Shown here in pieces: positions 16,430-25,722 of a stretch of 25,722 nucleotides of DNA. This stretch comes from a virus. The stretch's first letter is position 1, and every line of letters begins with the position of its first letter. The position numbers and the translations under genes are program-made. The stretch covers positions 1-25,722 of the IMG/VR virus record IMGVR_UViG_3300042402_001342. One strand, 5' to 3'. The notes beneath the pieces are model-generated. The model did no database searches, was not told where the DNA came from, and was given only the letters and a program-made list of their open reading frames with translations.

Positions 16430-16572
16430 AATTCTATCAAAGCAAAGAGTGGCTATATAGAAGATATATAGTTCAAAAGAAGACAGTTACGGAAATAGGC
16501 AAAGAGTGTGGAGTATCTGCTATGACAATACAAAGATACCTAGAACAGTTTGGGTTAATTAAAAAAAGATGA
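16426..16572 (+). CDS. Mini helix-turn-helix protein, 48 aa
   Basis: ATGA overlap at both ends ties this reading frame between its neighbours. The whole protein is one homeodomain-like HTH: helix WLYRRYIVQ, then TVTEIGKECGVSAMTIQRYL, then EQFGLIKKR, matching the SxxEIAxxxGVSxxTIxRxL pattern of DNA-binding domains that precede HNH nucleases or sit in regulators. Alone it could bind DNA as a dimer. It is too short for a catalytic domain. Confidence 0.75.
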   Translation: MKFYQSKEWLYRRYIVQKKTVTEIGKECGVSAMTIQRYLEQFGLIKKR

Positions 16573-17132
16573 AGATACATGAAAATGGAAAAGGGCAAGC
16601 TGGCCAAGACTCTTTCGTATTAAATGTTTTAAATGAAAAAAGAAATGGTTGGTATGTTGAAGTTGGTTCTAGTGACCCTGTAATATATAACAATACCTAC
16701 ATACTAGAAACAGAGTATGGTTGGCAGGGTGTAGGATTTGAATGGGATCAAGATGCAGCTGATATTTATAATAGCGTAAGAAAAAATAAATGTATTTCTG
16801 CAGACGCTACACAGTTTGATTATTTAAAGTATTTTCAAGACAATGCTTTTCCAAAACAAATAGACTACCTTCAACTTGATATAGAGCCAGCCTATCAAAC
16901 TTTAGCAGCCTTAAAACAGATTCCATTAACAGAATATAGATTTTCTGTAATAACATACGAACACGATTTGTATGCAGATCCAGCAAATAAAGAAATCAAA
17001 GAGGAGTCTATAAGAATTTTGTCGTCTTTAGGCTATAAGCTTTTAGTAGAAAATGTTAACGACGGTTCCCCAGATAGAATATTTGAGGACTGGTGGATAG
17101 ATCCACAAGTTATTAGGAGTACAGACACATGA
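16569..17132 (+). CDS. FkbM-like SAM-dependent methyltransferase, 187 aa
   Basis: The N-terminus GQAGQDSFVLNVL, then GWYVEVGSSDP (the SAM-binding VExG loop), NNTYILETEYGWQGVGFEWD and a motif around YLQLDIEPAYQTL follow the layout of FkbM-type methyltransferases, which often methylate sugars in glycan clusters. The cofactor is S-adenosylmethionine; the acceptor is unknown. It is somewhat shorter than typical members (about 200-250). It opens a run of carbohydrate genes, overlaps the mini HTH gene upstream (ATGA) and the glycosyltransferase downstream. Confidence 0.8.
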   Translation: MKIHENGKGQAGQDSFVLNVLNEKRNGWYVEVGSSDPVIYNNTYILETEYGWQGVGFEWDQDAADIYNSVRKNKCISADATQFDYLKYFQDNAFPKQIDYLQLDIEPAYQTLAALKQIPLTEYRFSVITYEHDLYADPANKEIKEESIRILSSLGYKLLVENVNDGSPDRIFEDWWIDPQVIRSTDT

Positions 17133-17890
17133 TATCAAAAACAATATGGCAAACATACGAAACACCAATTGATCAGTTGCCTTCAAAAGCACAAGAAAGC
17201 TTACAAACCTGGAAGAATTTAAATCCAAACTGGTCTCATGGATATATGAGCGGAGCTGATAGAGAAGACTTTTTTAGAACTGAGTTTGGCGGAGAAGTTT
17301 TTGATACATATATGAAATATCCAATGGGGGTAATGAAAGCAGGTCTGTGGAGATTCGCCATTCTTTATAAAAATGGTGGAGTATACGCTGATTTAGATAC
17401 AGAATGTATCAACCCCATAGACACTTGGTTAGATCAGCAGTACGATATGATTCTTGATTTGGAAGGTAATACACCATGGTATGCCACACAGGTCATTGCT
17501 TCATCTAAAGGTCATAAATTTTTAGAAGATGCTATCAATATGGCGGTTGAAAGAGCAAGAGGTGGAATTGTAGAACAGCAACACATGGTTCATTACTATA
17601 CAGATGTGGCTATGTTTACAGACAGCTTATTTAAATCAATGAATATTGAAGACGGATATAATGGAGATTTAAAGCAGAGAACACTTGAGTTTAACGAATT
17701 GCCAATTGCAAAAGAAAATAAATTCTTTAGTTTTGGTGGCAATGATGCTCGTAGGCTTTTAGATGTAGACGTTAAACATCTTTATTGGGGAGATGGAAGG
17801 CTAGAAAACTATGTAGCTTGGAAAAAGGATTCCATTTTTGAAAATTTAACTGTTGAAGACGTACAAAAAAGTCAGGCTAATAATCAATGA
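17129..17890 (+). CDS. Glycosyltransferase, GT32/OCH1-like, 253 aa
   Basis: Sugar transferase of the DXD-containing class. The start MISKTIWQTYETP recalls the IPKxIHQxW opening of this family. The GLWRFAILYKNGGVYADLDT segment holds the D88-L-D90 metal and nucleotide-sugar site. A later His-containing WYATQVIASSKGHKFLEDAI helix follows. Donor and acceptor sugars cannot be read. It has ATGA overlaps with both neighbours (the methyltransferase and the sugar nucleotidyltransferase), implying that the three act in one pathway. No transmembrane segment is evident, so it is likely cytoplasmic. Confidence 0.85.
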   Translation: MISKTIWQTYETPIDQLPSKAQESLQTWKNLNPNWSHGYMSGADREDFFRTEFGGEVFDTYMKYPMGVMKAGLWRFAILYKNGGVYADLDTECINPIDTWLDQQYDMILDLEGNTPWYATQVIASSKGHKFLEDAINMAVERARGGIVEQQHMVHYYTDVAMFTDSLFKSMNIEDGYNGDLKQRTLEFNELPIAKENKFFSFGGNDARRLLDVDVKHLYWGDGRLENYVAWKKDSIFENLTVEDVQKSQANNQ

Positions 17891-18546
17891 GCACTATAGG
17901 AGTTCTGCCAGCTTCTGGTAAAGCCGCAAGGGTAGGAGGAATACCTAAGTTTTGCTTACCTATTTCTGATGAAAGATCTCTTCTGCAATGGCATGTAGAG
18001 CAAATGCTTGAGGTTTGCGATGAAGTTAGGGTTTCAACTAGAGCAGAGTGGGTTCCAATTATCCAAAATATGGATATGAATATTAAGCTTATCGTACGTG
18101 AGCCATCAACAATGTCTGATGCAGTTAGGTTTATGGTTGGAGATTATAACGATACTGTTTTAGTCGGAATGCCAGATACATATATTCTAGGTACTCAAAA
18201 AAATATTTATAAAGAGATGATAAAATCTCCTGGAGACTTAGTTCTAGGTACATGGGAGTGTAACGAAGAATTAAAAGGTAGGGTTGGTCAAGTATTAATA
18301 TCTGGCGACAAAGTTCTTTCTTCTAAGGATAAGTCAAACAACTGTGATTATCCTGATATGTGGGGCACTATGCTATTTCGTAAAAATTTGGTAAGATACA
18401 TAGACATTGAGCTAGAACATCCAGGAAAGCAGATTCAAGAATGGATCGATATGAGTCTGGATATTAGAGCTGTAAAGCCAGGCGGCAAGTATATGGATAT
18501 AGGAACACTAAAAGGTCTTAAACAATTATATAAGGAGATGGAATAA
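17887..18546 (+). CDS. Sugar-phosphate nucleotidyltransferase, 219 aa
   Basis: Would join a sugar-1-phosphate to an NTP to give the donor for the adjacent glycosyltransferase. The N-terminal signature is LPASGKAARVGGIPKFCLP (about residues 7-25), equivalent to the GxGxR...PK nucleotide-binding loop of this GT-A fold family. LVGMPDTYI near residue 97 gives the metal-binding Asp, and KPGGKYMDIGTLKG near the C-terminus matches the common DIGTP-like end. At 219 residues it is shorter than RmlA/GalU types (about 290) and lacks the usual C-terminal left-handed helix. It overlaps its neighbours by 4 and 1 bases. Confidence 0.82.
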   Translation: MSTIGVLPASGKAARVGGIPKFCLPISDERSLLQWHVEQMLEVCDEVRVSTRAEWVPIIQNMDMNIKLIVREPSTMSDAVRFMVGDYNDTVLVGMPDTYILGTQKNIYKEMIKSPGDLVLGTWECNEELKGRVGQVLISGDKVLSSKDKSNNCDYPDMWGTMLFRKNLVRYIDIELEHPGKQIQEWIDMSLDIRAVKPGGKYMDIGTLKGLKQLYKEME

Positions 18547-24313: not shown

Positions 24314-24322
24314 TGCTATAAT
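24314..24322 (+). promoter_or_regulatory. Extended -10 promoter for the PA14-domain gene
   Basis: TGCTATAAT: TG at 24314-24315 and TATAAT at 24317-24322, five bases after the FmdB-like stop. Preceded by the same TTTAATGCTATA string as the recA promoter. A start near 24329 leaves about 31 bases of leader with AGGAG (24349-24353) before the TTG start. Confidence 0.65.
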
Positions 24323-24359
24323 TAACTAAATAGACAATAGGTTTGTTTAGGAGTTATAG

Positions 24360-25722
24360 TTGACTGGGACACAAGCATGGAGATTATCATTAGCCGCCAT
24401 TTTAATGTTTGGATGGGTATTTCTTACTCCTGCCCACGGAGATGATCCACTTAGCGTAGCTGCTCAAGAAATACAAGAGCTTAATAATAAAGTATCTAAT
24501 TTAGCTTATCAAGATGATTTTATAGATCTTATAGACATAGCAGAAAATAAATTTACATATGCTAAAAATGCGATGGATCTTAAAGAAGATGCATATGATG
24601 CCTATGATGATGCAGTAGATGCAGAAGCATCAGCCTTAGAGGCAAAAGTCCTTGCCCAGTCAAATGTAGATGCACAAACAGCAGTAGTAGCACTAGCACT
24701 TGAACATAAAGACAGCGCACTTGAAGATAAGAATGATGCACAGGATGCACTCAGCATAGCCAATATTAATGTTCAAACCACCCAATCAAATATGCAAAAT
24801 GCTGGTGGAACTGGGCTTTCCTATACAGTTTATAACCTATTAAGAAATGGTAATCAAGCAGTTACTGGATCTGTAATATGTACTGGCACATGGAACTCAA
24901 ATCATATGCAGCTTCCAGTATGTGGAAATAGATATGAAAACTTTATAGTTAATTTTAGTGGTAGGATTACAGTACCTTCATGGTTTACTCAAACATATTT
25001 TGCAGGTTATACCGACGATGGGTTTAGAATGTATGTCGATGGACAACTGGCTGTAAATAACTGGGTAGAGCAAGGAACAACATGGAGCGATTATTCTCCA
25101 GTATATGATGTTAGTGAAGACAAAACTTTAGATGTAGAAATATGGTGGTATAACGGTGGAGGCCCAGGTTCATATCATCTTGGATGGGGGATTCCTGGAG
25201 GATGGACTGGGGCAGGATGCGACTACGCTGGAAATCCAAGGGTTTGGGGACAAGATTTTAGTTGTAATCTTAACACATTTTCTCACGGGCCTGGAGCAAC
25301 ACAAGAGCAAATAGATGAATACAATAATGCAGTTGCAGAAAGGGCTACAGCGCAAACAAATTATAACAATAAGTCTGCAGTATACAATGATAAGCTTGTA
25401 GTATACAACTCTGAAAACGCAACGCTGTCATCAATGAATCAGATTTTACAAACAAAGACACAGGAGCATCTTGATGCCGTTGCGGACACAGAAGATGCTC
25501 TAGATTTAAAGAATAGTAGAATAAATACATATGATCAATCTATAATTGATTTAAATTCTGCTATTGAAGATGCATGGAACTATTATTTTGAACAATCTGA
25601 AAGAGAATTAAACGCCGCAATTGCACAAGCAGCAGCAAACGCTGCAGCAAATCAGCCAACACCAGAACCAAGCCCAGAACCAACAGACGAGCCTACATCT
25701 GAACCAACAGACGAGCCTACAT
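24360..25722 (+). CDS. Predicted secreted protein: signal peptide, coiled coils, PA14-like domain, Pro-rich tail (3' partial)
   Basis: An open frame of 454 codons to the window edge, starting at TTG 24360 with AGGAG seven bases upstream. Residues 1-27 are a Sec signal peptide (W7-R8, hydrophobic LSLAAILMFGWVFL, then TPAHG before DD). Residues about 30-150 and 312-430 are Ala/Asp/Glu-rich coiled coil. Residues about 151-311 look like a PA14 domain: FAGYTDDGFRMYVDGQLAVN, NWVEQGTTW, then VEIWWYNGGGPGSYHLGW, the DDG-x-x-x-x-V-D-G...W pattern of carbohydrate-binding PA14 modules; four cysteines could form disulfides. From about residue 433 the tail repeats Glu-Pro-Thr/Ser units, as in wall-spanning segments. 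Unknown function; likely exported by the infected cell. Confidence 0.8.
   Translation, partial: MTGTQAWRLSLAAILMFGWVFLTPAHGDDPLSVAAQEIQELNNKVSNLAYQDDFIDLIDIAENKFTYAKNAMDLKEDAYDAYDDAVDAEASALEAKVLAQSNVDAQTAVVALALEHKDSALEDKNDAQDALSIANINVQTTQSNMQNAGGTGLSYTVYNLLRNGNQAVTGSVICTGTWNSNHMQLPVCGNRYENFIVNFSGRITVPSWFTQTYFAGYTDDGFRMYVDGQLAVNNWVEQGTTWSDYSPVYDVSEDKTLDVEIWWYNGGGPGSYHLGWGIPGGWTGAGCDYAGNPRVWGQDFSCNLNTFSHGPGATQEQIDEYNNAVAERATAQTNYNNKSAVYNDKLVVYNSENATLSSMNQILQTKTQEHLDAVADTEDALDLKNSRINTYDQSIIDLNSAIEDAWNYYFEQSERELNAAIAQAAANAAANQPTPEPSPEPTDEPTSEPTDEPT
25677..25722 (+). repeat. 24-base tandem repeat coding for a Pro/Glu/Thr tail
   Basis: Two copies of a 24-base unit (starting GAACCAACAGACGAGCCTAC), at 25677-25700 and 25701-25722, the second cut by the window end. 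Each codes for EPTDEPTS. More copies may lie beyond the edge. Exact nucleotide identity points to recent duplication. Confidence 0.85.

Follow-up and report, generated by a model that had tools for sequence, protein, structure and literature searches.

Why should a phage encode a protein laid out like a bacterial surface adhesin? The question is raised by the right end of the window, the whole stretch of 25,722 bases analysed here, which is one entire virus record (viral contig). A frame opens there with TTG at 24360, directly behind an in-frame stop, and stays open until it runs off the contig at 25722. A preliminary description of the locus had proposed both the TTG start and a gene running past the window; with AGGAG 6 nt upstream of the TTG, a stop directly before it and a frame open to the contig end, both were confirmed. 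The window holds 454 residues of this stalk-and-tip open reading frame, out of about 710 codons as judged from the full-length relatives L003, L004 and L014. The order proposed for the protein, a signal peptide, a coiled coil, PA14, a coiled coil and a Pro/Glu/Thr repeat, was borne out by Pfam PA14, the predicted helices and the relatives. The Pfam PT repeat matched the window protein with E = 5e-5, yet below its own cut-off. The features of the locus were as follows.

24314..24322, + strand: extended −10 promoter element TGCTATAAT, conserved in the leaders of relatives
24328..24348, + strand: stem-loop of the 5′ leader with 8 bp arms (24328-24335 and 24341-24348), from covariation in 44 distinct leaders
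24349..24353, + strand: Shine-Dalgarno site AGGAG, 6 nt upstream of the TTG and conserved in relatives
24360..25722, + strand: stalk-and-tip gene with a TTG start, cut by the contig end, its length taken from relatives
24360..24440, + strand: predicted Sec-type signal peptide MTGTQAWRLSLAAILMFGWVFLTPAHG, with probable cleavage before DDPLS, from hydropathy and the conserved length in relatives
24441..24800, + strand: first long helix or coiled coil (AlphaFold2 model helix 25-119, pLDDT mostly over 90)
24816..25289, + strand: PA14 beta domain, a candidate lectin-type tip with TDDG, WWYNGGG and four invariant cysteines, from Pfam, Foldseek against the PDB and alignments
25302..25640, + strand: second long helix or coiled coil (AlphaFold2 model helix 288-399)
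25641..25722, + strand: start only of a Pro/Glu/Thr-rich linker, in relatives about 100 residues long and followed by a conserved C-terminal domain and a hydrophobic anchor

Elsewhere in the window, positions 16569-18546 hold a cluster of putative FkbM-like methyltransferase, glycosyltransferase and nucleotidyltransferase genes, named by sequence reading only.

The beta domain was matched by Pfam PA14 (PF07691) at residues 192-280, with E = 1.2e-5 and 25.6 bits against a cut-off of 24; relatives scored 24.5-28.5 bits. A first structure model, of the whole protein, had a pLDDT of 62 and was poor apart from the helices and the tip. An AlphaFold2 model of window residues 28-427, built with 53 sequences as input, had a mean pLDDT of 88 and consisted of two helices, the first of 95 and the second of 112 residues, with the beta domain (pLDDT mostly 73-87) between them. 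Such an arrangement points to an antiparallel stalk carrying PA14 at its tip; as the overall pTM of the model was 0.56, we infer the packing of the two helices from their order. Foldseek against the PDB gave RsgI-type PA14 domains as the best matches (6qe7, E = 2.6e-7; 6qdi, E = 5.5e-7), followed by sugar-bound Marinomonas PA14, MhPA14 and Flo/Cea1 adhesins, with MpPA14 and 6m8m in the 1e-5 range. The model and its matches to sugar-binding PA14 adhesins support the PA14-type fold that had been assigned from the letters.

In the TDDG and WWYNGGG motifs, the two Asp residues and the Asn were invariant in 53 sequences. The DD pair and the second-loop Asn serve Ca2+/sugar binding in PA14 (PMC6218569; for the DD pair also PMC6650083), and at least one adhesin PA14, the KpFlo2A domain, yielded no sugar ligand (PMC6218569). 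The conserved residues make the tip a candidate Ca2+-dependent lectin-type PA14 that may bind glycans. It shares with the PA14 (PF07691) adhesins MhPA14 and MpPA14 and yeast Flo5 and Cea1 a common beta fold (by Foldseek), the Asp-Asp pair, the loop Asn and a position at the tip of a long adhesin. Unlike these proteins, the stalk protein is phage-encoded, is only about 10-20% identical to them, and carries its PA14 between two long helices.

Hydropathy showed that the N-terminal hydrophobic segment is kept in relatives. It is followed by a cleavage motif, A-x-G/S and then DD, and the start codon lies exactly 27 codons ahead of DD in 68/68 unique leaders. The segment, the site and the fixed spacing support the Sec-type signal peptide of the preliminary description. 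No lipobox was found in 65 cases. The stalk protein is thus predicted to be Sec-exported, with a signal peptidase I-type site. All four cysteines of the mature protein are invariant and lie in the tip, which fits an oxidising location outside the cell.

The nature of the C-terminal anchor, which that description had left to sequence beyond the window, was read from the relatives. Full-length relatives are mostly about 670-745 residues long. After the Pro/Glu/Thr-rich stretch they carry a conserved domain of ~150 residues and then one C-terminal hydrophobic segment of about 18 residues, with mean hydropathies of up to 2.2 over 17 residues in full-length relatives, about 1.8-2.4 in representatives, and low AlphaFold confidence. 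An LPXTG-like motif was absent from the last 80 residues of 193 proteins. Conserved C-terminal arginines were considered as proof of topology and dropped, because the same bases encode the Shine-Dalgarno site of the next gene.

A scan of IMG/VR with the window protein gave 449 relatives, and a scan with a distant member gave at least 592. The loci examined were the best 80 per scan, so that sampling leans to near relatives, and counts refer to unique sequences, not independent lineages. Among the matches listed, the closest viral structure was A0A6J5NKY8 of an uncultured Caudovirales phage, with 707 residues and 58% identity over 725 columns. It belongs to the same family and is named only 'PA14 domain containing protein'; no description of its operon, start codon or tip exchange was found. 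INPHARED gave no match to the window protein. With a PA14-B relative as query, the only matches were to phage DSL-LC01, over a stretch covering the Fn3-like part of the query, and to a faecal contig, over a PA14-like stretch.

The terminase shared about 63% identity with its counterpart in Streptomyces phages (Stanwilliamsviridae), and a WhiB-like gene, spotted by sequence pattern, occurs near the locus in relatives. WhiB has served as an indicator of actinophages, in that case of freshwater 'Ca. Nanopelagicales' (PMC10202952). The terminase and the WhiB-like gene make an actinobacterial host likely, and the hosts are probably abundant planktonic actinobacteria. Two scans of genome contigs gave no reliable cellular homologue; since they used short peptide patterns only, distant host proteins may have been missed. 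The sole match, L083:2595-3035, was judged to be an assembly chimera of a phage fragment and a ribosomal-protein-S6-like frame, located at the end of a MAG contig. In 151 genomes of the phylum of that MAG, a scope that is no test of actinobacterial hosts, only proline-repeat matches were found beyond the chimera itself. The resemblance to a bacterial wall adhesin drawn in the preliminary description therefore holds for the exported, adhesin-like layout and not for close descent, as no reliable bacterial homologue was found.

In the relatives, the stalk gene heads a lysis operon. It is followed by a 2-TM gene (median +2 nt after the stalk gene, 69 loci), by the gene for a holin-type protein at about +260 nt and usually, within a few kilobases, by a CHAP endolysin; PHROGs matches among the downstream genes included holin and endolysin. 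In L004, a close relative, the stalk gene is followed in turn by genes for the 2-TM protein, a lipoprotein, a membrane protein and the endolysin. In all of 113 distinct junctions (113/113), the next gene starts between −8 and +4 nt relative to the stalk stop and has its AGGAG(G) within the last stalk codons. The tail genes sit in another module (115-kb relative), and the stalk protein matched none of the PHROGs virion families. A location outside the tail module is thereby supported.

Other genes were observed around the operon. A second exported protein (MNSFKKIALA...; L066:6709-7881, L069:6778-7884, L158:303-1493), with a signal peptide, a beta-rich part and an Ala-rich coiled coil, is encoded in many relatives shortly upstream of the stalk gene (median −107 nt) and in the L014 phage about 7 kb downstream of it; the protein had no Pfam or PHROGs match. 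A subtilisin-like protease with a signal-peptide-like N-terminus lies in the region past the lysis genes at L003:14600-15772 (Peptidase_S8, E = 1.3e-14), and an HslV-like peptidase (L029:12488-13042; phrog_1040) occurs near the lysis genes in most relatives. The metagenome-assembled actinophage DSL-LC01 (OQ999401.1; L399:8784-9309) has a holin homologue, upstream of which lie a ribonucleotide reductase and a small gene, and no stalk protein.

The promoter of the gene was examined across the leaders of relatives. Within the window alone, four −10 sites of this kind were found against 2.66 expected, which is not above chance. Among 64 unique leaders, however, an exact TATAAT was present in 63 and TGnTATAAT in 58, and in the wider superfamily the figures were 97/98 and 91/98, respectively. 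It is this conservation that bears out the suggestion that the gene has its own promoter. The stem lies between the −10 element and the ribosome site. Its double-changed cells numbered 44; shuffles gave 15.3 (0/500) and slid controls 1-19. In one clade the leader is short and lacks the stem. A search of Rfam with the leader gave no match near a gathering score.

The start codons were unusual. In 69 unique PA14-family leaders, the codon 27 codons from the mature N-terminus was TTG in 32, ATT in 20, ATA in 13 and ATC in 4, and was never ATG or GTG. Upstream alternatives for the AUH-start leaders (n = 37) were considered and rejected: a stop adjoins the AUH codon in nine, and in 28 the stretch from the upstream stop to the mature part contains no ATG, GTG or TTG at all. 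A census based on Shine-Dalgarno sites in 87 unique regions of the wider superfamily gave ATT 33, TTG 32, ATA 15, CTG 6 and ATC 1; one of the ATA calls, L275, proved on manual reading to be an ATG start, and ATG occurs in one clade only. In the same loci, ATG opens the neighbouring genes in 45/45, 36/36, 29/29 and 27/27 cases, and it opens 32 of the 37 genes read in the window. The stalk gene thus shows a strong avoidance of AUG, to which there is at least one exception, and initiation would take place at non-AUG codons. Avoidance this consistent offers a natural setting in which to test start-codon control. Because the usual gene finders allow no starts other than ATG, GTG and TTG, they would clip the signal peptide in many relatives, so that the exported nature of the family is easily missed.

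The position before the 2-TM gene was then treated as a slot, for which 128 complete frames were collected from terminase relatives and from two scans with the 2-TM protein. These frames share N- and C-terminal hydrophobic segments, with one short frame (L377) lacking a clear N-terminal one. By motif patterns, which are approximate, 63 carry a type-A PA14 tip (the kind in the window), 43 a divergent PA14, accompanied in some by Fn3-like domains, and 22 a beta tip of another kind; these counts are not population frequencies, because the two scans used each lineage's own 2-TM protein. Pfam gave no tip match for the non-PA14 tips, for which 'nidogen-like' is a tentative name only. The stalks vary too (Pro/Thr/Glu, PPAEE, Ala/Glu helices). 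For the two main types, a match between the C-terminal anchors spans 33 columns (E 3.6e-5, probability 71%). At 57 loci, distances in the PA14 tip showed no correlation with terminase distances (r = 0.06, p about 0.2), against r = 0.79 (p = 0.001) for the signal peptide and a moderate r = 0.34 for the C-terminal domain. Tip distances uncorrelated with the terminase phylogeny fit an exchange of tips between phage lineages.

Computation established the architecture, PA14 fold, operon position, start-codon pattern and exchangeable tips. On these we lean, by somewhat more than an even chance, towards a phage protein made late, by which a lectin is displayed around lysis on the infected cell's envelope. 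Its export, topology, glycan binding, timing and benefit would then be as follows. The protein would be exported by Sec, lose its signal peptide and be held in the cytoplasmic membrane by its C-terminal hydrophobic segment. The Pro/Glu/Thr-rich linker would span the wall of the cell, and the long helices would pack as a pair into a stalk with PA14 at its tip, where a glycan may be bound, probably via Ca2+. Since the gene heads the lysis operon and is translationally tied to the next membrane protein, it would be made together with the lysis proteins, in amounts held down by the poor start codon. Near lysis, the tip could attach to glycans on the surface of its own cell or of neighbours, and so occupy phage receptors or hold cells and debris. 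Simple masking of plentiful receptors is disfavoured, because the weak start codon suggests low abundance. Streptococcal antigen I/II-type adhesins likewise use helical and proline-rich stalk parts to hold a lectin-like tip off the wall; unlike the stalk protein, they are bacterial and LPXTG-anchored and have another tip fold.

The weak start codon and the coupling to lysis genes also make lysis timing a serious rival, which we nevertheless rate as rather improbable. Here the exported tip would sense the outside, or a long, poorly initiated and coupled leader gene would delay and meter the membrane proteins that open the cell. A first place in the lysis operon with coupled start sites at all 113 junctions, starts at TTG, ATT, ATA, ATC or CTG (ATG in one clade only) against ATG in the neighbours, and a strong conserved promoter with a leader stem all favour it. 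In a pure delay device, however, a conserved lectin tip, invariant cysteines and exchangeable tips would be superfluous; the next gene, with a strong AGGAGG and an ATG of its own, may not depend on coupling; and DSL-LC01 has a homologous holin without a stalk gene upstream. T4 RI, the lysis-inhibition sensor, is likewise an exported phage protein and acts with the holin, but lacks a lectin tip or long stalk, and we know of no sequence relation between the two. Lysis inhibition in T4 and N4 is mentioned in PMC12642591.

Two further explanations appear improbable, each to a similar degree. In one, the protein belongs to the virion, as a fibre or surface decoration for instance, and no signal peptide is cleaved from its hydrophobic N-terminus. 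Phage fibres often have long coiled coils and tips that bind carbohydrate, and phage structural proteins are among the distant structure matches. Against this stand the separate tail module, the lack of a PHROGs virion family match, the conservation of both the signal-peptide-like N-terminus and the C-terminal hydrophobic segment, and an operon shared with lysis genes. In the other, which takes up a suggestion of the preliminary description, an early superinfection-exclusion protein masks the receptor. The surface layout, own promoter and lectin-type tip would suit such a role, and tip exchange fits an arms race over surface glycans. Its difficulties are an operon position that points to late expression, a weak start codon that points to low amounts, and the absence of any early regulatory feature seen. 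A late or release-time role is favoured over early exclusion because the gene heads the lysis operon.

Late display of a lectin around lysis, on a membrane-anchored stalk, has the best support of these readings. More tentatively, and with less than an even chance, an exchangeable-tip adhesin in a lysis operon, throttled by near-cognate starts (AUU, AUA, AUC, CUG, UUG) and coupled on the holin side, may make display and lysis one regulated unit. The gene is found on hundreds of IMG/VR contigs, so such phages are widespread there. If the reading is true, a lysis-tied, lectin-tipped surface protein would give a new handle on how phages of this kind leave or hold their host cells.
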